Below are positions 12,484 through 59,839 of a DNA stretch of 64,000 nt, piece after piece. Origin of the DNA: a virus. Where the stretch lies: positions 62,001-126,000 of the IMG/VR virus record IMGVR_UViG_3300025881_000006. One strand, 5' to 3'. How positions within the stretch are numbered: the first letter of the stretch is position 1; each line of letters starts with the position of its first letter. Made by a program: the position numbers and the translations under genes. The notes under the pieces were generated by a model. That model was not told where the DNA came from. It saw only the letters and a program-made list of their open reading frames with translations, and ran no database searches.

Positions 12484-13185
12484 ATGGTAAATATTGATTT
12501 CACTAAAGATGAGTATTGCCAGATAGATAATATAGAGTGTCAGAGTATGCCGGGTGCATACTCTGTCTATGCCGTTATAGCTAAACGTTCGTTAGAAGGT
12601 ATTAGATTGCGGGTTTATATAGGCTTTACTTATAGAAATCCACAAATTAGGTTAAAAGAACATCAGGCCAAGTTGCGTGCTGGTAGACATGATAATCACC
12701 CATTACAAGAGGATTATAACCTTGGTGTAGGTTTAAAACTGTATAAGTCTTGGGTATTTGAATATCGTGAACAGGCCGAGTTGGGTGAACGGTTAATGAT
12801 AACGAGATTACTGAAAGACGATTTATGTTATAATAAATTAATCGGTATGAACTGGACTGAAAAGTTAAAATCAGAACGGTCTGGGGAGAAGGCCTCCTGG
12901 TGGGGTCGCCGACATAGTGCAACAACTAAACTTAAGATTGGTGGGAAGAGTAGGGGTAGAAAGCATACCGTGGAGACTCGTCGCAAACAATCTAAGGCTA
13001 AAAAGGGTATGTACAAAGGTAAAAATAATCCGATGTACGGTAAACGTGGAGCACTTGCACCTAAGTCCAAGTCGATTATTATCGATGGTGTTACGTATGG
13101 TGGATATAGAGAGGCTGCTCGTGCATTAGGTATAGCCCACAGTACAGTTACCCGTCGTGTTAAAATGGGGATGTACGCTGGCTGA
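12484..13185 (+). CDS. Free-standing GIY-YIG homing endonuclease
   Basis: 233 residues with AAGGA upstream. The N-terminal GIY-YIG nuclease fold is marked by GAYSVYAV (about residues 22-29) and VYIGFT (about 44-49), with a conserved-type Arg in LKEHQAKLRAGRHDN. The middle has NUMOD3-like Lys/Arg/Gly segments (GEKASWWGRRHS, GKNNPMYGKRG) and the end a NUMOD1/IENR1-like helix-turn-helix (YREAARALGIAHSTVTRR) for DNA recognition. Such genes cut phage DNA lacking them and spread by recombination. It sits alone between unrelated genes and no split gene is visible beside it. Confidence 0.9.
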   Translation: MVNIDFTKDEYCQIDNIECQSMPGAYSVYAVIAKRSLEGIRLRVYIGFTYRNPQIRLKEHQAKLRAGRHDNHPLQEDYNLGVGLKLYKSWVFEYREQAELGERLMITRLLKDDLCYNKLIGMNWTEKLKSERSGEKASWWGRRHSATTKLKIGGKSRGRKHTVETRRKQSKAKKGMYKGKNNPMYGKRGALAPKSKSIIIDGVTYGGYREAARALGIAHSTVTRRVKMGMYAG

Positions 13186-13340: not shown

Positions 13341-13889
13341 ATGACTACAATAGTGTGGGATGGAAAGTGTCTTGCAGCAGATAGCCAAATGACGGCTGGA
13401 TTTAATACTATCTCGCAAGAACCATTTCTAAAGATACACGCACTAGCAGGAAAGTTTATCAATCCAATTACAAAAGAGGAAGATACTTTACTTGCTATGG
13501 CCGGTGCTGGTGATGCAGCGTTATTACTACCATTTAGAAATTGGTTAATGGAGGGTATGCCTGAAGGTGGACTGACGTTTAATGTAGAAGATGTAGCTGT
13601 AGTAGTTATATGTAAAAACTCGGTATGGAGCTTCTACGGTTCGATTCACCCTCTTCCAGTAATGAACCACACTACTATAGGCTCAGGTTCTACCTTTGCA
13701 CAATCAGCGTTATCGTTAGGTCGTAATGCCCCCGAAGCAGTTGAACATGCTATTCGTCACGATATCTATTCAGGTGGTCGAATTGTCTGTATGAACTTTG
13801 ACCATGAAGGTCCGTATAATTTAGAAGTATACGACCCTACACTTGGATTAGAACATAGAAGTCAAGCAGCTTCTTTAAATTGGGTATAA
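13341..13889 (+). CDS. Proteasome beta/HslV-like Ntn hydrolase
   Basis: 182 residues beginning MTTIVWDGKCLAADSQMT. After removal of Met the next residue is a Thr, as in HslV and proteasome beta subunits, where it is the catalytic nucleophile. An Asp 13 residues in and a Lys about 30 in (FLKIHAL) sit near the expected places of the Asp17/Lys33 pair. Later GAGDAA and GSGSTFA match the Gly-rich turns of the fold. No ATPase partner such as HslU is near. It could be a small phage peptidase or an Ntn-fold protein with another role; the substrate is unknown. Confidence 0.75.
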   Translation: MTTIVWDGKCLAADSQMTAGFNTISQEPFLKIHALAGKFINPITKEEDTLLAMAGAGDAALLLPFRNWLMEGMPEGGLTFNVEDVAVVVICKNSVWSFYGSIHPLPVMNHTTIGSGSTFAQSALSLGRNAPEAVEHAIRHDIYSGGRIVCMNFDHEGPYNLEVYDPTLGLEHRSQAASLNWV

Positions 13890-15396: not shown

Positions 15397-16368
15397 ATGG
15401 GTCAAAAGAACCTACGTATCTATGGATGTGGCGGGGCAGGTATAAACCTAACCACTACATTTGCATTGGAGACTAGTGAGTCGCCTGTATATGCAGTTGT
15501 TAATCCGGTGTTTGTAGATACCAGTCTTTCTAATCTTGATTCTAACATTAGTAAGGACCAGTGTTTCATACTGCCTGATGTAGATGGTTCTGGTAAAGTT
15601 AGACGTGAGAATCACAGAGCGATATCCGAATCTGTGAAAGGCTTACTATCTACTCATGAGCCGTTGGATTTCAACATTGTTGTATTTAGTGGTTCTGGTG
15701 GTTCTGGTTCTGTAATAGGTCCACTTATTGCAAGAGAACTTTTAGATAAAGAAGTGCCGTTCATCTGTATAGTAGTAGGTTCAACTGAATCTGTCATTAC
15801 CTGTGAAAACACACTGAACACTTTAAAGTCATTAGATGCCATTTCTAAACGTGCTGAGTTACCTATCACCATTTTCTACCGTGGTAATGATGGTGATACT
15901 AAACGTTCAACAGTTGATAAGTCTATTAAAGATACTATCGTACGTTTGATGGCATTAACTTCTGGTAATAATGCTGAACTTGATAGCCGTGATATTTCTA
16001 CATGGTTATACTACAATAGACACTCTGATGTATCCCCACAGATATCTGAACTTAGCATTATCGATAACAGTACTATAGTTGAAGGTGTTAACGATCCAAT
16101 TTCTATTGCATCATTACTTAACGACCCTGATACCCCACTGCCACAAGCAGGTGCTGACTATCATTGTACTGGCTACATCAAAGGTGGAAAGAAAGAAACT
16201 CTACCTGACATGCATTTCATCATTTCTACTAGTGGTATTAAACACGCATACGAAAGTCTTACTGAGACACGTGAGCGTTATTTAAAGGCTGCTAAGAAGC
16301 GTAACACAGGTCGTAACGACTTGGTTAGTGCAGACGATGAAGTGGGTGACGACGACTTAGTATTATAA
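15397..16368 (+). CDS. phuZ: PhuZ-family phage tubulin
   Basis: 323 residues, close to the roughly 315 of known PhuZ. It opens with a nucleotide-binding strand and loop (LRIYGCGGAGINL) and has the tubulin/FtsZ signature as SGSGGSGS at residues 98-105, followed by VIGPLIARELL. Further PhuZ-like blocks are ESVITCENTLNTLKSL, LDSRDISTWL and LPDMHFIIS. The C-terminus is an acidic tail (DDEVGDDDLVL), the type that mediates filament contacts in PhuZ. In the family, GTP-driven bipolar filaments centre the phage nucleus and carry capsids to it. It has its own terminator, and the preceding gene is divergent, so it is a single-gene unit. Confidence 0.93.
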   Translation: MGQKNLRIYGCGGAGINLTTTFALETSESPVYAVVNPVFVDTSLSNLDSNISKDQCFILPDVDGSGKVRRENHRAISESVKGLLSTHEPLDFNIVVFSGSGGSGSVIGPLIARELLDKEVPFICIVVGSTESVITCENTLNTLKSLDAISKRAELPITIFYRGNDGDTKRSTVDKSIKDTIVRLMALTSGNNAELDSRDISTWLYYNRHSDVSPQISELSIIDNSTIVEGVNDPISIASLLNDPDTPLPQAGADYHCTGYIKGGKKETLPDMHFIISTSGIKHAYESLTETRERYLKAAKKRNTGRNDLVSADDEVGDDDLVL

Positions 16369-16383
16369 GTCATATGCGTCTAC

Positions 16384-16407
16384 GCCGTATCCCGTATGGG
16401 GTACGGC
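16384..16407 (+). terminator. Terminator after phuZ
   Basis: GCCGTATCCC pairs with GGGGTACGGC (one G-T pair) around GTAT, followed by TACCTATGACG, a diverged form of the usual TATGCCGT tail. Confidence 0.7.
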
Positions 16408-16443: not shown

Positions 16444-16470
16444 ACCTACATTATCTTGGTAATACAATAA
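16444..16470 (+). promoter_or_regulatory. Phage promoter motif for the small-gene array
   Basis: ACCTACATTATC at 16444-16455, then TAATACAATAA at 16460-16470, 18 bases before the first ATG of the operon. It is a near-consensus copy of the motif also found before chmA and the RNA polymerase genes. Confidence 0.65.
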
Positions 16471-16487: not shown

Positions 16488-16838
16488 ATGGATGAGCGTA
16501 AGAAGCATTATCTTTTCGATGTGAGTTTGGCAATGGAGGTAGCACGGCCAATAGTAAAGGATTTACAATGCCATATATCGCCGCATGATAAGATGGATGT
16601 GTACAATGTAATCAACGTATGGTTCATGCAACGTCTTTCAGATATGCAACTCATTATCTTTAAAGAACATATTAAAACTAGAATACCTCTCTCCGCAGCA
16701 GTATTTCTAGATGCCCTACCACCACAGATACAGGCAGCTGTGGATTCGGCATTATATCAAAGTGTTAAACACATGTGGGGACCCGAGGTTCAGGTAGAGA
16801 CTAAATTGAATTTCGATACCCTTCTAATAACAGTGTGA
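16488..16838 (+). CDS. Small-gene array member 1, unknown
   Basis: 116 residues, first gene after the promoter motif. It begins with a strand-like HYLFDVSL leading into a helix, has a helical middle, and ends in a strand, FDTLLITV. This layout recurs in most of the following ten genes. No known family is recognised. Eight bases separate it from the next start. Confidence 0.65.
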   Translation: MDERKKHYLFDVSLAMEVARPIVKDLQCHISPHDKMDVYNVINVWFMQRLSDMQLIIFKEHIKTRIPLSAAVFLDALPPQIQAAVDSALYQSVKHMWGPEVQVETKLNFDTLLITV

Positions 16839-16845
16839 GGTCGAT

Positions 16846-17349
16846 GTGATAAAAAGAATAATATTACCCTTAAAAGAATTTGCTGAACTACTATCGCTAC
16901 AGACACAACAGTTTCTATACATGTATACAAACTCAAAGATACCATACACTGCCAACCCTACCGTATATAACGACATAGTAAAAGCAATGGTAGAGGATGT
17001 TTTAAACAGTAGAATTAAGTGGGCACCTAATACCGATTTACTATCGGGTGTCCTTGCTGATAAGTTCGACTGGTATATAGACTATCCGCAAATAGGCAGG
17101 GAGTACTTCTGTAGGTGTGTAGATGGTATTGATGGTAGGATTGACGATATCATCAGTCAGTATGTACCTTACTCCACTAATGACGTATGGAGTGTAATCT
17201 ATACTAAACGGGATTTAATCTTAGATAACCTAGGAGAGGATACCACCACCAAAGAACATCAATATCAGGATACAATAGAACGTTACGAAACTGTTATTAA
17301 ATTAATGTTAGATGGTAATCACGAAGCACGTGAGTTATTGGTGAGGTAA
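16846..17349 (+). CDS. Small-gene array member 2, unknown
   Basis: 167 residues from a GTG at 16846 with GAGG six bases upstream. It starts with MIKRIILPL then a helix; the body is rich in Tyr and Asp. Unlike most members it lacks a C-terminal strand and ends in a charged helix. One base separates it from the next gene. No family recognised. Confidence 0.6.
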   Translation: MIKRIILPLKEFAELLSLQTQQFLYMYTNSKIPYTANPTVYNDIVKAMVEDVLNSRIKWAPNTDLLSGVLADKFDWYIDYPQIGREYFCRCVDGIDGRIDDIISQYVPYSTNDVWSVIYTKRDLILDNLGEDTTTKEHQYQDTIERYETVIKLMLDGNHEARELLVR

Positions 17350-17350
17350 T

Positions 17351-17845
17351 ATGGAAGACGAGATTAGTGTTATAGTGTCAATGGAAGACCCGGCAGCATT
17401 AATAAGGAAAGTCTTACGTCAGAATATCGGAGTGGTAGCAGAGATGATAGACATTGCTCCCATCATTGAGTTTGAATTAGAACTTGTATTGATGGGAAGT
17501 CAGGTGAGACCTTACATTGATAAGGATATCACTGAAATGTACCTATCTCCTCACTGCCCCCAGACGGCTATACTGACTGAACTTAAAGTAATCATAGCGC
17601 ATTGTGTACATAATGCCGTACAGGGCTCTATAGGGCTTCCTAAGGGTAACCACGAATACTCTTACGGGAAATTAAACTCTGAATTGGACTATGTGGTCAC
17701 AGACCATGGAGATTACCGCCTACAAGACTACTTTAGGTTATTACGTGAAAAGAATGAAGAGGGGTTAGAACATGGCGATGAATTTAAAATCCCAACTGAT
17801 CTTGCTAGACATAAACGATTGTTTAACCGACCGGGCTGCTATTGA
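17351..17845 (+). CDS. Small-gene array member 3, unknown
   Basis: 164 residues, starting EISVIVSMEDPAALIRKV (strand then helix). The C-terminal third is charged (REKNEEGLEHGDEF) and overlaps the next gene by 74 bases, an unusually long overlap. No known family. The overlap means either compact coding or that the last residues are dispensable. Confidence 0.6.
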   Translation: MEDEISVIVSMEDPAALIRKVLRQNIGVVAEMIDIAPIIEFELELVLMGSQVRPYIDKDITEMYLSPHCPQTAILTELKVIIAHCVHNAVQGSIGLPKGNHEYSYGKLNSELDYVVTDHGDYRLQDYFRLLREKNEEGLEHGDEFKIPTDLARHKRLFNRPGCY

Positions 17846-18257
17846 AGATAAGTTACCACTTTATAACCTAGACATACGAGATGGAGTGGCCATAGCTATT
17901 TATGGTCTCTCCGAATCCATGCATGACCTAGGTAGTTTAGATGCTAACCTATTTAAATTATTACAGAATGAATCAGGGTATGTAGGTATGGACTATACTC
18001 TGGAAGACACGTACGACGTGACATTACACATTTTGTCAATAATAAATGATGTACTTCCTATAGTCAATACCCTTAAATTGCATCACCCCATTAAACACCT
18101 GACAGTGAACGAATGGCTTGGGGATGTAGTCATTATTAGTATTGAAACGGAGATAGAGTACAATGCCATTTGTAGCACATTCACCCACGATGGATCTGTA
18201 TCACCAACCAGCCAACAATCAGTGTTTAACTTTCCCAATTATTATTCCCATGCATGA
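17772..18257 (+). CDS. Small-gene array member 4, unknown
   Basis: 161 residues with GAGGGG upstream. N-terminal strand SQLILLDIND, then a helical region including GVAIAIYGLSESMHD, and near the end GDVVIISIETEIE as the closing strand, followed by about 25 residues that overlap the next gene by 95 bases. Helix-level similarity to members 6 and 7 is visible but weak. Confidence 0.6.
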   Translation: MAMNLKSQLILLDINDCLTDRAAIEDKLPLYNLDIRDGVAIAIYGLSESMHDLGSLDANLFKLLQNESGYVGMDYTLEDTYDVTLHILSIINDVLPIVNTLKLHHPIKHLTVNEWLGDVVIISIETEIEYNAICSTFTHDGSVSPTSQQSVFNFPNYYSHA

Positions 18258-18636
18258 TATCTATCCACGATTAGACCCTGCTTACATCCAAGAAATGTTC
18301 ATGTTTAATACGTCATTACCAGACTTAATGCACTGCGCAGCCACATGTGCTGTACGTTTCATTAGAAAGGTAGGAGATGTCATTCCGCCTAATGATGAGG
18401 TAGAAGATGAGATATATAGTCAGTTAAACCAAGACTATCTAGACAGTGATATTAATCCAAATAACTACAGTGCCTATCAGTCAATAGTGTACCTAACGTT
18501 AGATATGACACTTGGACTGATATCTAGGTTGTCTACAGTGATATCACATTACCCATCGCTAACACTTTATGATATCAAGTACATGTCCAACTATGACATT
18601 ACTTATATCGCACACACTCGGGAGCAAGTATGGTAG
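18163..18636 (+). CDS. Small-gene array member 5, unknown
   Basis: 157 residues from ATG 18163, which has GGAGATAGAG upstream; a later ATG at 18250 would avoid the overlap with the preceding gene but has no ribosome site. Strand LTFPIIIPM near the start, helices around LMHCAATCAVRFI, and a closing strand YDITYIAHT. Its stop overlaps the start of the next gene. Function unknown; the exact start is uncertain. Confidence 0.55.
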   Translation: MPFVAHSPTMDLYHQPANNQCLTFPIIIPMHDIYPRLDPAYIQEMFMFNTSLPDLMHCAATCAVRFIRKVGDVIPPNDEVEDEIYSQLNQDYLDSDINPNNYSAYQSIVYLTLDMTLGLISRLSTVISHYPSLTLYDIKYMSNYDITYIAHTREQVW

Positions 18637-19031
18637 GTAACGGCACGGTACTTTTAGAGTATAGTGGTAGTTATTTTACTAGGCCGAAATGGTCACATGA
18701 GGTCCTATCTGAATTAGGGCTTACATGTGACATTTTATTTGATTATGCCGTCTATGGTGCACAGTGTGCTATGGATTCGGTACAATACTTAGAGCCAAGT
18801 AGACTATTACCAGTACTATCGGATATAATGTACAACGATTTAGACGATCAGGTAGGCAGACTTTCTCAACAAAATTTAATGCGGTTAGATGAATTGGTAA
18901 TACTGGCAACTGTAATGGCCAATGAATTACTACCAGCGTTAAGACAGATTCAATATAATGCAGGTAGGGATGTTTCTTTTGACTATGTAGAATTTAACCA
19001 CGATACCATAATACTACACATGGAGTACTAA
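18630..19031 (+). CDS. Small-gene array member 6, unknown
   Basis: 133 residues. Strand TVLLEYSG, then VLSELGLTCDILFDYAVYGAQ, a second helix with MRLDELVILATVMANELLPAL, and the closing strand HDTIILHMEY. It aligns by eye over most of its length with member 7 (LSELGL/LSEVGL, MRLDEL/VRLDQL), the clearest evidence of paralogy in the array. The start overlaps the previous stop. Confidence 0.65.
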   Translation: MVGNGTVLLEYSGSYFTRPKWSHEVLSELGLTCDILFDYAVYGAQCAMDSVQYLEPSRLLPVLSDIMYNDLDDQVGRLSQQNLMRLDELVILATVMANELLPALRQIQYNAGRDVSFDYVEFNHDTIILHMEY

Positions 19032-19032
19032 T

Positions 19033-19419
19033 TTGATAACATCTAAAAAGAAGATGATAATTGATGCTCCTGAGGCATTGTCATCCGTCCCACCGTGGGA
19101 GCAAGAAGCCTTGTCCGAAGTAGGGTTACAACGAGATGTTGTAATGAATTATGTACTGTGGGCTATACAACAATACCACCATCACGATATCGAATTCGTT
19201 GAGACCATGTATATGTGTCTTGAAGATGACATAGAGACTAGTGGTGAGACATTAACCGATGTAAACGCGGTACGTTTAGACCAGTTAATAGAACATTACA
19301 TTAAAGTAGCGACTGAGTTGTATACACAGATAAAGTTGCTGTTAGACGAACAAGACGAGGATTCCTATATGTCAATACAAATGATAAATCCTTACCACTT
19401 GATAGTGGGGATAGAATGA
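19033..19419 (+). CDS. Small-gene array member 7, unknown, TTG start
   Basis: 128 residues from a TTG at 19033 preceded by GGAG at seven bases; the next in-frame ATG (19054) lacks a good site and would cut into the first strand, KKMIIDAPE. It continues ALSEVGLQRDVVMNYVLWAI, VRLDQLIEHYIKVATELY, and closes with YHLIVGIE. It is paralogous to member 6. Its end overlaps the next start (ATGA). Confidence 0.6.
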   Translation: MITSKKKMIIDAPEALSSVPPWEQEALSEVGLQRDVVMNYVLWAIQQYHHHDIEFVETMYMCLEDDIETSGETLTDVNAVRLDQLIEHYIKVATELYTQIKLLLDEQDEDSYMSIQMINPYHLIVGIE

Positions 19420-19793
19420 AAATAATAATAGACAGGTCTGAATTAGTAGACGAACGTCAAGAAACACTACCCGCCCATTTAGAGTTAGGTATACCAACGG
19501 AAGAAGTAATAGAGTGTGCAGCTGCTATTGTTAATGAGGAAAGAGCACTAGGGTCTAAGTTATCCACTAGTGACCGTCACCATGCGGTACAGGGCTTCCT
19601 AGGACATTATGGGATAGCCACAGGTAAGTCTGAAGTGGTTGCTAAGCAGGTAGCGGCATTAGAAAGTACTATCATGGAAACCGTTGAGGTGTTAGATAAT
19701 ATACTGACACGTACTAATCAGTTAATTGAATTGTATAGCTTTATAGAGGTGAAGCATTTAAATGATAATGCTATATCAGTAGAGGTAGTGTAA
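19416..19793 (+). CDS. Small-gene array member 8, unknown
   Basis: 125 residues. Opens MKIIIDRSELVDE, then LELGIPTEEVIECAAAIV, which is positioned like the LSELGL segment of members 6 and 7, a long helix pair ending ILTRTNQLIELYSF, and a closing strand AISVEVV. ATGA overlap upstream and TAATG overlap downstream show coupled translation. Confidence 0.65.
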   Translation: MKIIIDRSELVDERQETLPAHLELGIPTEEVIECAAAIVNEERALGSKLSTSDRHHAVQGFLGHYGIATGKSEVVAKQVAALESTIMETVEVLDNILTRTNQLIELYSFIEVKHLNDNAISVEVV

Positions 19794-20206
19794 TGAATCA
19801 ATTATCAACAAAGCAAGTCATTATTGACCCTACTACTATAGAGGCAATGTACGACGTCCTAAAGATGGAATGGTTACAACGCTGGAAACACATCATTGTA
19901 GAAGTACCCTTTAAAACGTTCATTGATTTCTTACTTAGATACATGAACCTGTATAGAACCGGTGATGATGCTTCGTTTATAGCAGATATGTTTTGTAGAA
20001 GGATGGACTTACCTCCAATCTCAGATGAAGCATTTCTTACACTTAACAATGTGTGTAAAGAGTTACAACAGTTAAGTAGGTTAGTCAACCCCCATTTAGA
20101 TGGCATGAGGTTGGTATCCATTAATAAACACGTACTAGTAATAGAGATACAGGCCCATGTCACAATTAGTAATACTACAAACCCAAGACCTGCTAATCGA
20201 ATTTAA
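19793..20206 (+). CDS. Small-gene array member 9, unknown
   Basis: 137 residues. Strand KQVIIDPTTI, helical body with ISDEAFLTLNNVCKELQQL, closing strand HVLVIEIQAHV, then about a dozen residues that overlap the next gene by 50 bases. The IID after the first strand is shared with members 7 and 8. No known family. Confidence 0.62.
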   Translation: MNQLSTKQVIIDPTTIEAMYDVLKMEWLQRWKHIIVEVPFKTFIDFLLRYMNLYRTGDDASFIADMFCRRMDLPPISDEAFLTLNNVCKELQQLSRLVNPHLDGMRLVSINKHVLVIEIQAHVTISNTTNPRPANRI

Positions 20207-20504
20207 TCAAACTATCTATGGATTGAGTGATTTATCTATCGAGGATAAAGATATAATTTCAGTAGCTCTTATGTGTACTACCTACAGTCCAAACGATGTA
20301 GATGATTACAGAGATGTATTAATAGGTAAGTATATATCCACGCTAGCATTAAACGTCAGTGAGAGTGAAACCTTACACGGCGCTATATTGAAGTTAGTAC
20401 TAGAATTTCAACTACGATTACAACGCAGTGGTCATGAAACAGTAGGTAAGACCATAGAGCTTGACCGTGTAATTGAAGATGACATATTTGTCAAAATAGG
20501 CTGA
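20157..20504 (+). CDS. Small-gene array member 10, unknown
   Basis: 115 residues with ACAGG five bases before the ATG, inside the end of member 9. Strand SQLVILQTQD, helices including LHGAILKLVLEFQLRL, closing strand DIFVKIG. The layout is again strand, helices, strand. No known family. Confidence 0.62.
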   Translation: MSQLVILQTQDLLIEFNQTIYGLSDLSIEDKDIISVALMCTTYSPNDVDDYRDVLIGKYISTLALNVSESETLHGAILKLVLEFQLRLQRSGHETVGKTIELDRVIEDDIFVKIG

Positions 20505-20510
20505 TGTATT

Positions 20511-20885
20511 ATGTTTAAGTTAATAGTAGTAGAAGTAGAAGAACTCAATCCAATATTCAGAGCACTAGGAGCTACCATATTCCCCGACTCTGAAGTATAT
20601 CAAGTTGATGTAGTGAATATGTTAAACCGTGCCTTAACTCATATTACCGAACATGGTAAAATAGAGAGTAGGGCACTTAGTGACAAATCCTATGTATTAT
20701 TAGACCTAGCACCTATAGTCGATGATTGGCTTGAAGTACTAGGCACTTTCCTAACACAGCACAATCTCGGATGGGACTGCTGTACATCAATTGAAGCTTT
20801 AGACTCTAAGGGTTCAGTGGCACTACTTTTTGGAGATTACAGTTATGGAGATTTTCACCGGTGTACGAATCTTCGACACGGTTAA
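20511..20885 (+). CDS. Small-gene array member 11, unknown
   Basis: 124 residues. Strand FKLIVVEVEEL at the start, helices around DVVNMLNRALTHI, closing strand GSVALLFGDY, then a short tail overlapping the next gene by 41 bases. It is the last member with the common layout. Confidence 0.6.
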   Translation: MFKLIVVEVEELNPIFRALGATIFPDSEVYQVDVVNMLNRALTHITEHGKIESRALSDKSYVLLDLAPIVDDWLEVLGTFLTQHNLGWDCCTSIEALDSKGSVALLFGDYSYGDFHRCTNLRHG

Positions 20886-21252
20886 CTTTAGCTTACACGC
20901 CAATACGACAATAGGCACAACGTTCAAGCGTGTTAAGATTAAAGGTATAGTCGATTTCGATACAGCCCGTACGCTAATAGACCCTATAGCACTACATGAG
21001 AATATCATCCCTAACCTGCCAGACGGTACGTTAGATGACCCACGTCAATACTCTTATCTTAAAGTAGAGTTATTAAATGGTGATACTACGTTTGTAGGTG
21101 TTCCTTGGATAGTAGCGGCAAGTGTGGTCAAGGTTACTTCTGGTAAACTGACTATTGTGATAGGTGATATTGATGTTACTAAGGTGGATGATGTACTGAC
21201 TGCATTATCTGCTAATAACTTCAAAGTGACGTCCTCGGACTTCAGTGGATAG
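20845..21252 (+). CDS. Unknown strand-rich protein ending the array operon
   Basis: 135 residues from ATG 20845, nine bases after GGAG; a TTG at 20830 is the alternative. Unlike the preceding eleven it is almost all beta-strand (FKRVKIKGIVDFDTA, KLTIVIGDIDV) and has no helical core, so it is not a member of that family. A small beta-barrel is plausible. Function unknown. Confidence 0.55.
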   Translation: MEIFTGVRIFDTVNFSLHANTTIGTTFKRVKIKGIVDFDTARTLIDPIALHENIIPNLPDGTLDDPRQYSYLKVELLNGDTTFVGVPWIVAASVVKVTSGKLTIVIGDIDVTKVDDVLTALSANNFKVTSSDFSG

Positions 21253-21380
21253 TAAAAAAATAGTGTATAACCAATACTATGTACTGTAACAGTAGTTCCG
21301 CCAATTCTGCCGTTACGTAAAACGACCTGTCGCCAGCGGGAAGTTGGGTCTTCGTGACCTCTATATTTGTCGAACGGACT

Positions 21381-21402
21381 CTCCCGACCATAAGGTCGGG
21401 AG
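21381..21402 (+). terminator. Perfect 9-bp terminator hairpin
   Basis: CTCCCGACC pairs with GGTCGGGAG around ATAA, then TTGTCTTTCTTATGCCC and a run of six T. It ends the array operon or a short RNA, just before the polymerase promoter region. Confidence 0.75.
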
Positions 21403-21458
21403 TTGTCTTTCTTATGCCCTTTTTTCTTTGATTTGGCTACTTTTCTTTTTATGCCGTC

Positions 21459-21480
21459 ACCTCAGTTATGACAATATAGT
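21459..21480 (+). promoter_or_regulatory. Degenerate promoter-like motif before DNA polymerase
   Basis: ACCTCAGTTATG followed by ACAATATAGTAACA resembles the ACCTACATTATC class with several mismatches, 20 bases before the polymerase ATG and right after a TTATGCCGT element. Low certainty. Confidence 0.3.
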
Positions 21481-21499: not shown

Positions 21500-23626
21500 A
21501 TGCAACATTTTATCAACGATACCCATGCATACGGACGTGATTTAAATATAGTAAGTAACTATCATCACGATACCGCTACGTATATAGCTAAGATGACAGG
21601 TCAGGATATGGATTACTGTTTATCTTGGGTTAAACAACAGACTAGTCCTGGCGGTACTATGGCTGGACATGACCCTGAGCTATTATGTTTATCTAAAGAG
21701 ACCCCTGGGAACCGTACACGCATCCCTATGACGTTCTTACAGTACTTACATGAAGTAGAAGAACGTAAAGCTTTAACTTCACCCACAATGGCTGCCTATT
21801 TAAACCCTAACGAGCGTAAGTCTATACTGGCTAAGTATATTGATGGTAACATCAAACTACGTTCTAAGGTTAAGAAGCAGATGTTCCAAGACAAAATGGA
21901 TGGCAATAAGCAAGCTGCTGCTGATGGACAGAAGATTCAATCCACCTTTAAGATAAAGAACAACTCACTATCAGGTGCCCACGCCTCTCCATATACGCCG
22001 TTGTTTAACAAATCTACTCACTCAACTCTGACATCTACTTGTCGTAGTGCTACTGGTTATGCTAATGCTAACAATGAACGGTTCTTATTTGGTAATCGAC
22101 ATTACTACGCTTTGAATGTAACACTTGAAAATATCATCTCAATTGTTAATCAAGCAGACTATGCATTAATAGAACGGGCTATGGTAGAATATGAGTTAGT
22201 AGTACCAAGTATTACAGATGTTTGTGCAGCTATTAAACGCTCTACTGATTTATATTGGGCTAACTCTGTATGGACAGCGCAGATAGAAGCATTAGTGTCT
22301 AAGTTAACCGACATAGAACGTGCAGCCTATCTCTACACTGCCGATATGTATCACCTACGAGTATTAAACCCAGACATGGTGTATAACTTCCTAGATAAGT
22401 TGTCTACTAAGTTAGATACACCACATCCAGACCCAGACCCTATTATTAAAGCATTAGATGCTGACTTGATAGCGTATATTGGTATCCTGTGCTCTAAAGA
22501 GTTAAATGGTAATACTATCTGGGATGCCAAGGATAAGAATCCTGAGAACTATGCAATCATTGCTAATAATGCAGCGAACGTAATAGGTGTGTTAGATAGC
22601 TACCGTTTACTGATACGTGCCTTTTGGGTAACGAACTCACCACCTAGTGCTATTGCATTCTTTACAGATTCAATTCGCCGTGGGGTATTAGTGTCTGATA
22701 CAGATTCTACTATCTTTACGGTGCAGGATTGGACTACGTGGTTCTTAAAGGGTATTAAGTTTGGTGAGAAGAATGATGCCCTGTGTGCAGCTATTGTCTA
22801 TATGGCTTCACAGACAACCATTCATTTACTTGCACAACTATCTGGTGCGATGGGTGTTATACCTGAACATATGTCTTTACTATCAATGAAGAATGAGTTT
22901 ATGTTCCCGACTCTATTGTTAACCTCACGTGCTAAGCATTATGCGTCGTATATCTCAGCCCAAGAAGGGAACGTATTTCCTAAGATGGATACTGAGATTA
23001 AAGGGGTGGCTTTAAAATCATCTAAAGCACCACAGCACGTTATTGATAAGTTACACAAGTTCATCATGGAACCTATGGATTTAGTATTAGCCAGTAAGAA
23101 GGTATCTGTTAAGAAGATGTTAACAGAAGTAGCTGAACTAGAACGTGAGATTGAAAACTCTATCTCAACTGGTAAGGTTGATTACTTGACTACGTCTAAT
23201 ATTAAAGAACGTGAGTCTTACGCTAATCCTAAGAGTTCTAACTTTATCTACTACGACATGTGGGAAATGGTATTTGCACCGAAGTACGGCCCTGCCCCAT
23301 TACCACCTTATCGTGCTGTAAAGGTATCTATGCGTTCAACTAGCGGTACTACACTTCGTAAGTGGATTGATAGTATCGAAGATAAAGAAATGGCAGAACG
23401 TTTAAAGACTTGGGTATCTGAAAACAATCGCTTAGGTGGTATGCAGCAAATTCTAGTACCTATAGAAGTAGCTGTTACGTCTGGGATACCTAAAGAAATA
23501 ACGATGAATGCGGATACTCGTAAGGTAGTGTATTCAACCGTAGAGCCATTCTATTTGATACTTGAATCGTTTGGCGTGTATATGCGTGATAAAAATATCA
23601 CTAAGTTAGTTAGCGACTTTCATTAG
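21500..23626 (+). CDS. Family-B DNA polymerase, C-terminal part (motifs B and C)
   Basis: 708 residues from ATG 21500 with AGAGG upstream. Motif B of family-B polymerases is KIKNNSLSG at residues 151-159, and motif C is the metal-binding DTDS at 400-403 (SDTDSTIF). Downstream TSRAKHYASYISAQEG and KGVALKSSKAP match the usual post-motif-C region that contacts the primer. No exonuclease domain and no motif A (SLYP type) is present, so the gene encodes only the later half of a split polymerase; the partner must lie outside the window. The region between motifs B and C is longer than usual. This is as I recall for phiKZ-like replicases. It has a separate promoter region. Confidence 0.85.
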   Translation: MQHFINDTHAYGRDLNIVSNYHHDTATYIAKMTGQDMDYCLSWVKQQTSPGGTMAGHDPELLCLSKETPGNRTRIPMTFLQYLHEVEERKALTSPTMAAYLNPNERKSILAKYIDGNIKLRSKVKKQMFQDKMDGNKQAAADGQKIQSTFKIKNNSLSGAHASPYTPLFNKSTHSTLTSTCRSATGYANANNERFLFGNRHYYALNVTLENIISIVNQADYALIERAMVEYELVVPSITDVCAAIKRSTDLYWANSVWTAQIEALVSKLTDIERAAYLYTADMYHLRVLNPDMVYNFLDKLSTKLDTPHPDPDPIIKALDADLIAYIGILCSKELNGNTIWDAKDKNPENYAIIANNAANVIGVLDSYRLLIRAFWVTNSPPSAIAFFTDSIRRGVLVSDTDSTIFTVQDWTTWFLKGIKFGEKNDALCAAIVYMASQTTIHLLAQLSGAMGVIPEHMSLLSMKNEFMFPTLLLTSRAKHYASYISAQEGNVFPKMDTEIKGVALKSSKAPQHVIDKLHKFIMEPMDLVLASKKVSVKKMLTEVAELEREIENSISTGKVDYLTTSNIKERESYANPKSSNFIYYDMWEMVFAPKYGPAPLPPYRAVKVSMRSTSGTTLRKWIDSIEDKEMAERLKTWVSENNRLGGMQQILVPIEVAVTSGIPKEITMNADTRKVVYSTVEPFYLILESFGVYMRDKNITKLVSDFH

Positions 23627-25256: not shown

Positions 25257-25314
25257 ACGTAGTTATTCCATTAACTAGTTAATGTTCGACAAATATAAAA
25301 AAGGTATTATTATT

Positions 25315-27195
25315 ATGGCTATAGATAAAGGTAACGATAAAGCAGCACCAAAAACTGCTATGGCAGATGCAATGACTGAAGCTACAGGTAACCAAAGTAC
25401 GCAACAACGTGCTCAAAGTAACCAGCGTCAGACATCATCAGAGCGTCCATCCTTAAGTGGATTGAATGCGTTCTTGGCCAACCCTATATCGCGTAACAGT
25501 GCCGGTGAAGTAACTTCTGCTTACTTGAATACGTTCAAGAAGTTGTTAGCGAACGAAAGCTCACCTGCTATTAAAACTATTAAAATTGATGCAATCAATG
25601 GAGATGCCAACTCCCTTGCCCTTTCTGCAATCGTTTTACAGTTACCAATCGATGGTATCGTCGCATGTTATACATTCATTGTAGAAGCATCTGGTGATAA
25701 GTTAGCTGACCGTGTTGTAACTATCGGTCAAAATCAAGTAGGTATTGCAGTAACGTCGGGCGATGTTTACGATGACTACCTATGGAAGCAAGTAAATAAC
25801 GTATTGAGTAATCAGTACGACAGCGCACGTCTAGTAGATGTAGGTGCATGTGTAATACCAGCCACTACCGTAGCTACAAACGAAACGGCAATACACGCAC
25901 TTATGTACCATGCGGTTACTGCATGTTGGACAACGTTAATGCGTATCACGCAAGCGTCAGTACCTACATTGTCAGTATCTGATATTAACACTCGTGACAT
26001 CTTAGTTGCTAAGTTGATATACGCACCGGGCGATACTCAAACTGCTGCTGGTTCAGTTGTACGTTCTGATGTTGAAATTAACCTTAACGGTATTTTACAA
26101 ACAGGCGATGCGACTTCTGCTAAACAGCAAGTACGTCTATCATCTGTTGATGGTTTTGTAGACACAGTCTTCATTCCTAAAGCACCACATAACCCAGCGA
26201 CCATGTATGGCCAGGCTCCAGACCTTCGCCAGTATCAGCCACGTTTCGTAATGACTGATGTTGAATCTGGATTAGATGCAAACAACTTAGAACTACAATT
26301 GTTAGCCATCTCAACTACAATGTTGTTGACAATGCAGTCTGGTTGGACACATTGCTTTAAGCCTCAGTATGGTGGTAAAGGTACTGACCTTAAAGATATC
26401 GGTGCAGTTGGTTACGAAATCAACTTCAACCCAACCGATCCTAATGCACCATTAGCCAAGATTAATACTAAGTCTGATAAGTTCTCTGAGTCTGATTTAT
26501 ACCAGCTGATTCAAACTACTTACCATCCTGAACTAATCTTCTCTCTTGATATCGAAGAGTGTGGTGAGTTAACGTGGTTGCAAGAAACCTTCCTTGCAGC
26601 AGCAGTAGGTAACCCTAAAGCTTCTAATGCAATCATCAAGGCGTGTGATAACTTGACCAATGGTCAGTTCTCTAACATCTACCAAGGTGGTCGTCCATTA
26701 ACAAATGAAGTTATCCGGGTTCACTTGGGATACTACGAAGACGAGAAAGGTCAACAGCGTGACATCCGTGATTTGGATTACGTTGCTATACTTAACTTGT
26801 TTGGTGGTCGTGATATGGCTGTTGTTGAACAGTTCTCTAACACGTACGACCGTACAGATATCCCTGAAGAAATACGTTTGTCAGAGCGTGCTAACATCAT
26901 CCGTAATGCCTTGGGTGAAACAGTACGCATCACTGGCTACGCTCGTCGTGTAACATTCGACCCTAAGTTCATGGAAGCATTATCTAGTGCTATCACAGCT
27001 GCCGGTCTTACAGTACGTCCTGAAGGTATCTTCAGTAACAATGCTGGTGTTGTACGTGGTAATCCAAACTCTGCCAATCTTGGTGTAGGTATGGGTGCAG
27101 CGGACGCATACTTCAAAACTGCGGGTAGTGGTTTCCAAGGTCATAGCCAAGGTAACTACGGTTCACGCATGGGTTCCAATTTCTGGAATAACTAG
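25315..27195 (+). CDS. chmA: Chimallin, phage nucleus shell protein (candidate)
   Basis: 626 residues from ATG 25315, ten bases after AAAAAAGG; the in-frame ATG at 25282 has no ribosome site. The length fits chimallins (about 600-630). The protein has a disordered Gln/Ser/Thr-rich N-terminus, a large alpha/beta core, and a Gly/Asn/Ser-rich disordered C-terminal tail ending in MGSNFWNN, as expected for subunits joined by flexible terminal segments. The next gene is the beta' N-half with NADFDGD, the same order as phiKZ gp54-gp55 (from memory). It has its own strong promoter motif and terminator, consistent with a very abundant product. In the family, ChmA assembles the square-lattice shell that shields replicating DNA. 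The identity rests on order, size and tails, not on an alignment. Confidence 0.78.
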   Translation: MAIDKGNDKAAPKTAMADAMTEATGNQSTQQRAQSNQRQTSSERPSLSGLNAFLANPISRNSAGEVTSAYLNTFKKLLANESSPAIKTIKIDAINGDANSLALSAIVLQLPIDGIVACYTFIVEASGDKLADRVVTIGQNQVGIAVTSGDVYDDYLWKQVNNVLSNQYDSARLVDVGACVIPATTVATNETAIHALMYHAVTACWTTLMRITQASVPTLSVSDINTRDILVAKLIYAPGDTQTAAGSVVRSDVEINLNGILQTGDATSAKQQVRLSSVDGFVDTVFIPKAPHNPATMYGQAPDLRQYQPRFVMTDVESGLDANNLELQLLAISTTMLLTMQSGWTHCFKPQYGGKGTDLKDIGAVGYEINFNPTDPNAPLAKINTKSDKFSESDLYQLIQTTYHPELIFSLDIEECGELTWLQETFLAAAVGNPKASNAIIKACDNLTNGQFSNIYQGGRPLTNEVIRVHLGYYEDEKGQQRDIRDLDYVAILNLFGGRDMAVVEQFSNTYDRTDIPEEIRLSERANIIRNALGETVRITGYARRVTFDPKFMEALSSAITAAGLTVRPEGIFSNNAGVVRGNPNSANLGVGMGAADAYFKTAGSGFQGHSQGNYGSRMGSNFWNN

Positions 27196-29665: not shown

Positions 29666-29992
29666 ATGACTATATTTCAATGTAACCGATGCGGCTGTGC
29701 GGAAGACGTGGCGTTTGGCTTTATAGCTAAAAGTCCCCAAGGGCCCAGGGCATTTGTTAATTATACTTCTGGCACCCATGTATGTTCTGTATGTGCACCT
29801 ACATGTAGGGTTAATGGTGAACTTACACATATGCACGATGGCACTTGGCATGGTATGTTTCCTAGAATATTCCTACCACACGGAATGTTCATTACTAATG
29901 GTCAAGGTATGGTAGAACATATCGAAACTGGTATTTCTGGAAATGAAGCGTATAAACTTTACGGTAAGTCCGAAGAATATCCTAATTACTAA
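29666..29992 (+). CDS. Zinc-ribbon protein, copy 1 of a tandem pair
   Basis: 108 residues. Two Cys pairs, CNRCGC near the start and CSVCAP near residue 43, form a likely zinc ribbon. The C-terminal half holds WHGMF, IFLPHGMFITN and VEHIETGI. The next gene is a recognisable duplicate with the same blocks in the same order. Starts three bases after the previous gene. Function unknown; such small zinc ribbons often bind nucleic acids or proteins. Confidence 0.65.
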   Translation: MTIFQCNRCGCAEDVAFGFIAKSPQGPRAFVNYTSGTHVCSVCAPTCRVNGELTHMHDGTWHGMFPRIFLPHGMFITNGQGMVEHIETGISGNEAYKLYGKSEEYPNY

Positions 29993-30017
29993 ATTTACAA
30001 ATAAGGATTTAATACAC

Positions 30018-30344
30018 ATGGCTATATTTCAATGTCAACGATGTGGCTGTGCTGAAAATACCGGCACTGGTTGGTTTCATTCTGCCCATAGGAATGAAAA
30101 GTGGTTTGATGGTTATGCTAAGGATGAGAAGGTATGTTCAGCCTGTGCCCCTACCCATTACAAAGATGGTAGCCCTGTTAAAAAGTTTAATGGTGAATGG
30201 CATGGTAGTTTTAAACGTACATTCCTACCTCATGACATGTTCTTTACTAATGACCATGGTACGGTAGAACATATCGAAACTGGTATAATGGGTAACGGTG
30301 CATACGAGTACTATGGGCGTGCTGAAGAGTATCCAAAAGAATAA
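30018..30344 (+). CDS. Zinc-ribbon protein, copy 2 of a tandem pair
   Basis: 108 residues from ATG 30018 with AAGG upstream; a longer in-frame start at 29943 would run into copy 1. It keeps CQRCGC and CSACAP, then WHGSF, TFLPHDMFFTN and VEHIETGI. The spacing between Cys pairs matches copy 1. Near-identical nucleotide stretches at the start and near the end point to a fairly recent duplication. Confidence 0.65.
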   Translation: MAIFQCQRCGCAENTGTGWFHSAHRNEKWFDGYAKDEKVCSACAPTHYKDGSPVKKFNGEWHGSFKRTFLPHDMFFTNDHGTVEHIETGIMGNGAYEYYGRAEEYPKE

Positions 30345-32827: not shown

Positions 32828-32858
32828 CCAGCCCTAGGAATATTTTAATACACGTCTT

Positions 32859-32886
32859 GACATATACTATAATCAAACACTATAGT
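32859..32886 (+). promoter_or_regulatory. Promoter before a non-coding stretch
   Basis: GACATATACTATAATC with ACTATAG downstream matches the copy at 12029 in spacing. It also reads as a bacterial sigma70 promoter, TTGACA (32857-32862), 18 bases, TATAGT (32881-32886). Both readings predict a transcript starting near 32893. Confidence 0.5.
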
Positions 32887-32892
32887 CCCTAT

Positions 32893-33035
32893 TCAAGACG
32901 CTTTTCATTCTCTATGCGCATTATGCGTTTAAGAAATGACCATGTTTGATAACAGCAAGAATGTTATATGAATCACCGTAGACCGCATACCACTTAACAG
33001 ACTAGAGGCCCAGCAATTGCGGGTACTCTAGTCTG
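32893..33035 (+). ncRNA. Candidate small non-coding RNA
   Basis: Between the promoter and a strong terminator lie about 140 bases with no open frame longer than 11 codons and no ribosome site. A small CGCA/TGCG hairpin lies near 32918. The gap 32828-33227 is the longest gene-free stretch in the window; after the terminator it holds a TTATGCCGT element (33055-33063), AT-rich DNA, and the promoter of the next gene. Expression is inferred from the flanking signals only. Confidence 0.4.
32998..33035 (+). terminator. Strong 10-bp hairpin
   Basis: CAGACTAGAG pairs perfectly with CTCTAGTCTG, with an inner GCCC/GGGT pairing around AGCAATTGC. TTATGCCGTC follows 20 bases later. Confidence 0.7.
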
Positions 33036-33171
33036 CGTAACTAATAAACAGTGCTTATGCCGTCATCAATTTAACTAACATACTTAATATAGGTAACCAT
33101 GATATTAACTAACTTACCCGGTATCTTTCCCTTGATAGTCTAGTCTCGAATCTTATTGCACATAAGTACAG

Positions 33172-33199
33172 ACCTACATTATCATTGCGTTAAGTATAC
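33172..33199 (+). promoter_or_regulatory. Phage promoter motif
   Basis: ACCTACATTATCATTGCGT then TAAGTATACC, about 30 bases before the ATG at 33228. A consensus copy. Confidence 0.65.
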
Positions 33200-33704: not shown

Positions 33705-33707
33705 AGT

Positions 33708-33740
33708 AGAGGGGCCTAGCGGTCCCTCTCTTTATGCCGT
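33708..33740 (+). terminator. Terminator with TTATGCCGT tail
   Basis: AGAGGGGCC pairs with GGTCCCTCT (one G-T pair) around TAGC, then CTTTATGCCGT. Confidence 0.75.
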
Positions 33741-33817
33741 TGGTGGCGGTATCTCAGAAATTACACCCAAGGAACATTTATGAATAAAAGAAACCCTTAC
33801 AAAACAGGAGACGTTAT

Positions 33818-35465: not shown

Positions 35466-36590
35466 ATGGCATATAAAGGTAAGCACCTCAAGATGGCATC
35501 CATATCGGATATTCACTTAGGACATAGTAACACTCCTACAGTGGATGTGATTGCACGTCTTAGGGAAACCTTTAGAGATTGTGATGAAACGGGTGAATTG
35601 GATATCATCTGGCTGGCTGGGGATATATTTGATAAGTTATTATTCTTTCCAGATAACAATGTACATGAGTTGCAGTTGTGGATAAATGATTTCTTACGGA
35701 TGTGTAGTAAGCGAGATATCGTAGTACGTGTATTAGAAGGTACACCATCTCATGATAGGGGGCAGGGTAAACACTTTGTAACTATAAATTCACTAGGTGG
35801 GCACAACGTCGACTTAAAATACGTAGACACGTTAAGTATTGAATACATAAAACGATTTGACATCAACGTACTTTATGTTCCCGACGAATGGGACCATGAC
35901 CCTAATGTAACGTGGGAAAGTGTTTGTGGGTTGTTACAACAGCACGGATTGGATAAGGTAGACTATGCTATTATGCACGGTCAGTTCGAGTATCATTTAC
36001 CTGAACATCTTAAATTGCCTTCACATGAATCCAAGCGTTACCTTAGTATTGTTAAACGCTATATCTTCATTGGACACATTCATCTTACTTCTATTGTAGA
36101 AAGAATACTGACTGCTGGAAGCTTTGATAGGATATGTCATAACGAGGAAGGACCTAAGGGTCATTTTAGAGTTCAAGTATCCGACGACGGTAAACATGAT
36201 AAGATTACATTCGTTGAGAACAAACAGGCTACTAAATACATTACAATAAACTGTATGGAAGTGAGCATTGAAGGTGTGTGGGAACGTCTAGCTGAGTATA
36301 AAGAATATCCAGCCAATAGTCACTTTAGATTACAGTGCACTAAAGACAGTGAGATACGTCACTCGATGTCAGAGGTTAAAGAACGATATCCTCTTTTCCA
36401 TTGGAAGCTTAAAATAACCGCACAGGAGACGGATGGTCAAACTGCTACTACAGGACTTGTGGATAAGTTTGTAGCAACTGAAATATCCCCCGGGAATATC
36501 TGTGCATTGGTCCAAGAAAAACTAAACGCTCAAGAGTTAGATAGTCGTGTATTACAACGTACTATGTTACTGCTTGATAAGGTAATTTAA
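35466..36590 (+). CDS. Mre11/SbcD-type metallophosphoesterase nuclease
   Basis: 374 residues, AAGGA upstream. All calcineurin-like metal motifs are present in order: SDIHLGH near residue 14, LAGDIFD near 51, a GTPSHDRG motif in place of GNHD, IMHGQF near 178, and FIGHIH near 205. These coordinate two metal ions in Mre11/SbcD and T4 gp47 nucleases. It would process DNA ends in phage recombination. No SbcC/Rad50 partner is recognisable in the window. The C-terminal third, after the phosphoesterase fold, is unassigned. Confidence 0.85.
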   Translation: MAYKGKHLKMASISDIHLGHSNTPTVDVIARLRETFRDCDETGELDIIWLAGDIFDKLLFFPDNNVHELQLWINDFLRMCSKRDIVVRVLEGTPSHDRGQGKHFVTINSLGGHNVDLKYVDTLSIEYIKRFDINVLYVPDEWDHDPNVTWESVCGLLQQHGLDKVDYAIMHGQFEYHLPEHLKLPSHESKRYLSIVKRYIFIGHIHLTSIVERILTAGSFDRICHNEEGPKGHFRVQVSDDGKHDKITFVENKQATKYITINCMEVSIEGVWERLAEYKEYPANSHFRLQCTKDSEIRHSMSEVKERYPLFHWKLKITAQETDGQTATTGLVDKFVATEISPGNICALVQEKLNAQELDSRVLQRTMLLLDKVI

Positions 36591-59539: not shown

Positions 59540-59551
59540 CGGTAGGGAATC

Positions 59552-59749
59552 ATGTTATTAGTTGAGGCAGTAAGTCTAGGGATAAAGGAAAAACAATGTG
59601 ATAGTTGTAAGCAGATTAAACCATTGTCTTCTTTTGAAATAACCTACAGTCACCAGTTACGTGGTAAGCTACACGGTCACTGTTATACGTGTCGCATATT
59701 GACACTTGTTAACAACGTAGATGCTATAGTAAAACAGAAGAGGTCTTAG
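59552..59749 (+). CDS. Small zinc-finger protein
   Basis: 65 residues. CDSCKQIKPLSSFE and CYTCR form two Cys pairs, with His before the second, a ribbon seen in small phage regulators and nuclease-linked domains. Function unknown. Ends just before a terminator. Confidence 0.6.
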   Translation: MLLVEAVSLGIKEKQCDSCKQIKPLSSFEITYSHQLRGKLHGHCYTCRILTLVNNVDAIVKQKRS

Positions 59750-59770
59750 GACTTCTTCTTACTATGCCGT
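59736..59770 (+). terminator. Terminator with TATGCCGT tail
   Basis: AGAAGAGGTC pairs with GACTTCTTCT (one G-T pair) around TTAG, followed by TACTATGCCGTC. Confidence 0.75.
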
Positions 59771-59839
59771 CAGTGAGGTGTAGGTATATACATACCAACA
59801 ACATGTTGTGACTATGGTAACTAATAAAGGATAAGTGCT

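Follow-up and report, generated by a model that had tools for sequence, protein, structure and literature searches.

An operon of small, mostly acidic proteins between the PhuZ and DNA polymerase genes of a nucleus-forming jumbo phage

The DNA analysed here (the window, 64,000 bases) comprises positions 62001-126000 of a virus record of 194,866 bases. It encodes chimallin (ChmA; 25282-27195, phrog_4795, E 4.8e-108), the PhuZ tubulin (15397-16368), a phiKZ-type DNA polymerase (likely ATG at about 21500, end at 23626) and multisubunit RNA polymerase genes (matches to phrog_2987 and phrog_3295). Based on these genes, the phage is a nucleus-forming jumbo phage (chimallivirus). Features by which the Chimalliviridae are recognised are found in the window: the chimallin gene, the multisubunit RNA polymerase genes and the conserved block order, which reads gp42 type, PhuZ, array, gp49, polymerase, gp52 type and ChmA and is identical in Erwinia phage Ea35-70. 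The core genes of nucleus-forming phages are mostly of unknown function. Upstream of PhuZ there are also a homing-endonuclease-like gene (12484-13185) and an HslV-type peptidase gene (13341-13889). Two adjacent, overlapping genes at 29666-29992 and 29943-30344 both match phrog_11861 (E 1.8e-20 and 1.6e-24) and form a second tandem duplicate pair in this phage, besides the one described below.

The array between PhuZ and the polymerase consists of head-to-tail genes on the plus strand. All eleven ORFs described in a previous sequence-only reading, of 115-167 aa, were found at the positions and lengths given there (16488-20885): member 1 (16488-16838, 116 aa), member 2 (16846-17349, 167 aa), member 3 (17351-17845, 164 aa), member 4 (17772-18257, 161 aa), member 5 (18163-18636, 157 aa), member 6 (18630-19031, 133 aa), member 7 (19033-19419, 128 aa), member 8 (19416-19793, 125 aa), member 9 (19793-20206, 137 aa), member 10 (20157-20504, 115 aa) and member 11 (20511-20885, 124 aa). 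Most neighbours overlap or almost touch, in agreement with the many overlaps noted there. Member 4 has a C-terminal extension of about 30 residues beyond the closing strand, which reaches into the start of member 5; its relatives end at the strand. The earlier span was too short, as the array runs on into a twelfth gene (20830-21252, plus strand) which overlaps member 11. This last gene is a clear member of the phiKZ gp49 family (phrog_3235, E 4.6e-34; 98 homologues). The gp49 protein has an SH3 fold and adjoins the phiKZ-type polymerase (PMC7824862); it is reported to interact with the polymerase, and its knock-down to cause a strong plaque reduction (PMC12571901). No similarity was found between the phiKZ gp49 family and members 1-11.

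A hairpin, GCCGTATCCC-GTAT-GGGGTACGGC, follows PhuZ at 16384-16407 (plus strand) and was recognised by sequence; relatives also have a hairpin here, and the PhuZ unit probably ends at it. Positions 16444-16469 (plus strand) hold the promoter-like element ACCTACATTATCTTGGTAATACAATA, and a terminator-like hairpin is located at 21381-21402 (plus strand). Based on these three features, members 1-12 form one operon. The shared promoter motif proposed earlier is real: ACCTACATYAT is found at 16444, about 40 nt upstream of member 1, and is supported by its count in the genome and by its conservation before member 1 in relatives. The 194,866-base record contains ten forward matches, no reverse ones and none to the backward control. 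In the window the motif lies upstream of member 1, chmA, the two RNA polymerase beta-type genes (phrog_2987 and phrog_3295), a phrog_3209 gene and the region at 33172. In the closest relatives, the corresponding place before member 1 is taken by ACCTACATTA, and the motif is also present ahead of the arrays of Ea35-70 and Proteus phage 10. Of 67 loci, 13 have their best motif site no more than 450 nt downstream of PhuZ, vs about 1.8 expected; many of these 13 are close relatives. Judging from chmA, ACCTACATYAT is possibly an early promoter. The phiKZ-type early promoter TATATTAC is absent at the operon and shows no enrichment, and sigma-70-like sites (42 vs 32 in shuffles, sd 5.6) were unconvincing. 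DNA repeats within the array do not go beyond short matches in two or three copies. Intergenic gaps of the window contain a recurring (T)TATGCCGTCA-like motif (e.g. 21253-21475, 32828-33155, 33705-33817 and 59540-59839), often directly after hairpins; it could represent a late promoter of the TATG type or belong to terminators.

Concerning the relationship of the members, single-sequence similarity between pairs is mostly nil (phmmer). Members 6 and 7, which had been reported to align clearly, do so with E about 2e-8 and are the sole significant single-sequence pair of the window array; tblastn and a pattern scan with member 6 gave nothing usable. Profile-profile comparison, with reversed sequences as the null (maximum score 24.5), links members 3 and 10 (35.5), 4 and 5 (30.9), 4 and 10 (29.2) and, weakly, 8 and 9 (25.3). 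In a cleaner separate comparison, member 10 aligns with member 3 over only 40 N-terminal columns (score 28.0) and with member 2 over only 22 columns (25.9). Member 1 matches the FLC9_2283 array family (36.5), and member 10 matches two FLC9 families (53.6 for FLC9_5205, and 43.0). Neighbouring array genes of other phages are joined by like profile links, above the reversed null. A strong link of 26 columns between members 2 and 3 was discarded because three long proteins are common to both alignments. Member 3 represents the second widespread array family (59 members), and the iterated profile of member 4 takes in its paralogue, member 5.

A superfamily HMM with reversed decoys accepted 180 proteins, with as many as four from a single phage; member 10 is the hub. 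It finds member 4 (E 2e-14, a value to which member 4 and its orthologues contribute as rows of that HMM), member 7 (E 6e-5) and member 5 (E 8.5e-4). Across the 134 ORFs of 60 aa or more in the window, the ranking is member 10, member 4, member 7, an ORF at 35466, members 5, 6 and 8, one other ORF, and members 2, 11 and 9. When members 4 and 10, whose relatives trained the HMM, are left aside, array genes are seven of the nine next hits (hypergeometric P 1e-8, with the cut-off picked after the list was seen). The HMM gave no hit in PhiPA3, Ea35-70, Eowyn or SNUABM_54, for which the link is by fold hits, position or within-clade orthology only. An ad hoc pattern for the opening strand is found in 57% of array families vs 23% of controls (P 0.002). 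At the level of sequence profiles, these comparisons show most members to be distant tandem paralogues, whose copy number would change through local duplication. The proposal of diverged paralogues thus stands for members 3, 4, 5, 7 and 10, for 6 via 7 and for 1 via array families of other phages, but the links of members 8, 9 and 11 are weak; the partial match reported for member 8 likewise amounts to some similarity, but a weak one.

A common design of opening strand, helices and closing strand had also been proposed, and it holds for the two of the eleven members compared as AF2 models, 2 and 10. The two models were compared by the order of their elements, which agrees; differing folds, named earlier as the refutation, were not seen for these two. 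The model of member 10 (111 aligned sequences; pLDDT 92.1, pTM 0.85) has the order strand-helix-helix-helix-long helix-strand-strand. That of member 2, made from a separate alignment of 42 sequences (pLDDT 90.4), repeats this order, except that helix three is split, and adds two further helices after it. Based on this order, member 2 has the closing strand that the previous description had it lacking: its closing hairpin is internal, in the middle of the protein, and is followed by helices. A Foldseek search of the PDB with the member 10 model gave no match (best E 0.2), and the predicted fold of the array family appears to be without a counterpart among solved structures. Sequence-profile hits in the PDB, only helical designs and EF-hand proteins, were attributed to composition. 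For members 2 and 10, the top matches in the viral Foldseek library are uncharacterised phiKZ-like proteins, partly the same ones for both (PhiPA3 039 and 044), with several proteins per single phage in PhiPA3, Eowyn, Ea35-70 and Psa21 and modest E values of about 1e-5 to 0.1.

The same slot was compared in 22 cultured phages and 81 IMG/VR loci, and the position of the array is constant in nearly all chimallivirus loci examined. The slot between PhuZ/gp42 and gp49/polymerase contains 5-11 small genes (median 6) in the 79 other loci with a gp43-type and a gp49-type gene; 315 of their 522 neighbouring gene pairs overlap and 131 more are at most 20 nt apart (446 together). The window array, with ten genes counting from member 2, is among the longest. 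Within clades the array genes are orthologous and their order is kept; between clades, single-sequence search detects almost only gp49 and the gp43-type genes. The types of member 2 and gp49 are nearly universal among the loci compared. Orthologues of member 1 are found in 14 IMG loci, those of members 5, 8 and 11 in ten loci each, and those of member 9 in relatives. In the closest relatives (8-10 IMG/VR phages, polymerase 55% identical), members 1-5 and 8-11 are collinear and no orthologues of members 6 and 7 lie between members 5 and 8. As both are absent there, members 6 and 7 are probably a local gain, likely the latest duplication. Bacillus phage AR9, a related phage without ChmA and the single negative one, has no array beside the polymerase and none of the array families. 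Vibrio phage JHP1101 has the array, and no PhuZ gene is annotated alongside. The genes could in principle be unrelated small acidic alpha/beta proteins gathered at one insertion-prone place, in line with the near absence of pairwise similarity and the weak links of members 8, 9 and 11. We consider this very improbable, given the profile links above the null, the decoy-controlled HMM, the element order common to members 2 and 10 and the gene order kept within clades.

Among the closest known systems is phiKZ gp43 (201phi2-1 gp75, PhiPA3 gp039; phrog_14023, unknown function). Member 2 belongs to the same family by fold and by iterated HMM, which gathers phiKZ gp43 (2e-27), PhiPA3 gp039 (2e-32) and 201phi2-1 gp75, and both occupy the same slot ahead of gp49 and the polymerase. 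By eye, phiKZ gp43 (357 aa) consists of two fused modules, whereas member 2 comprises a single module plus C-terminal helices. The hypothetical proteins phiKZ gp44-gp48 and their counterparts resemble the window array in slot, size and overlapping layout, and PhiPA3 044, which resembles phiKZ gp47, was hit by the models of both member 2 and member 10; however, no sequence similarity ties gp44-gp48 directly to single window members. The statement that no described family fits also agrees with our searches: members 1-10 have no Pfam or PHROG family, and none of the 111 superfamily rows matches a PHROG. Judged by these matches, the superfamily lies outside every Pfam and PHROG family, except for phrog_14023 of member 2. 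By gene number, phiKZ gp43-48 were not found in the main texts of the literature searched, and the superfamily seems undescribed there. These results tie most of a conserved gene block of nucleus-forming phages to a single protein family, apparently undescribed, and identify genes that belong together.

Based on close pairs of loci (L029-L030 and L026-L027), the dN/dS of the array genes is 0-0.13 at dS 0.07-0.8, close to that of PhuZ (0-0.03); these are gene-wide averages, by which single diversifying sites may be masked. Together with the collinear orthologues of nine members (all except 6 and 7), these values indicate that the array ORFs are real genes. At long range the array genes are 18-38% identical to those of the window, vs 55-59% for PhuZ or the polymerase, with dS saturated at that distance. 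Rapid long-range divergence thus accompanies strong purifying selection, not an arms race. Ten of the eleven members have a net negative charge, and in other phages the acidic fraction of array families is 90%, vs 41% for controls (P 4e-7), a composition which speaks against direct binding of nucleic acids.

The sequence-only reading explained the fast evolution by changing host targets, such as defence inhibition, with subunits of one assembly as the alternative. Under the former, the members would be inhibitors for counter-defence or takeover, each directed against a different host protein, and the array a diversifying arsenal. In its favour, the members are small, acidic and far diverged from their nearest relatives, copy number varies, members 6 and 7 are recent duplicates, and the promoter is possibly early. 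However, the low dN/dS in close relatives leaves diversifying selection, and hence this idea, unsupported; the gene order is fixed within clades, two of the gene types are nearly universal, the operon is shared with the polymerase partner, and members 1-10 have no Pfam or PHROG hit to an anti-defence domain. We regard a host-directed arsenal as unlikely. Subunits of one assembly fit better, and a single cellular assembly is favoured because of the fixed position, the purifying selection, the transcript shared with gp49 and the promoter type shared with chmA.

Our preferred, still tentative reading is that the chimallivirus array is an operon of small acidic proteins, duplicated in tandem and far diverged, mostly of one family with a strand/four-helix core/strand-strand design, which may form one heteromeric assembly. 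The paralogues would be non-interchangeable subunits, made from the promoter type used by chmA. The assembly would be non-virion and remain in the cell; in the 201phi2-1 record, the array proteins gp74-gp80 are without a mass-spectrometry note, whereas neighbours such as gp73 and gp81 bear one. Together with gp49 and the DNA polymerase it would serve replication within the phage nucleus; under this reading, a complex of array proteins and the replication machinery is expected. A shared operon is no proof of a shared complex. We infer the complex of polymerase and gp49 as the first choice and the nuclear shell or an import complex as the second.

The latter could take the form of an adaptor set docking on ChmA and licensing cargo. 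The promoter type is that of chmA, AR9 lacks ChmA as well as the array and its family, and cargo specificity varies among phages (PMC12908238). The import factor PicA/Imp1, phiKZ gp69 as traced by gene number, sits elsewhere, however, the reviews consulted name no gene from the array interval, the operon ends in the polymerase partner, and the negative evidence is from AR9 only; shell or import factors are rather unlikely. Returning to the preferred assembly, a wider form of it is conceivable but doubtful: a superfamily of new fold, tandemly expanded in nucleus-forming phages, might build a machine of several subunits, either a polymerase holoenzyme or a nucleus-associated complex, that belongs, so far unrecognised, to the core of the phage nucleus.

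Matches to the array superfamily also occur away from the array. In the window, the ORF at 35466-36590 (374 aa) scores 14.9 bits with the superfamily HMM, which exceeds some array members. In FLC9, two further genes of the superfamily, gp224 and gp225, form a second pair far from the polymerase (L109 5073-5961, corresponding to FLC9 184572-185460), and similar second sites are present in two IMG/VR phages.
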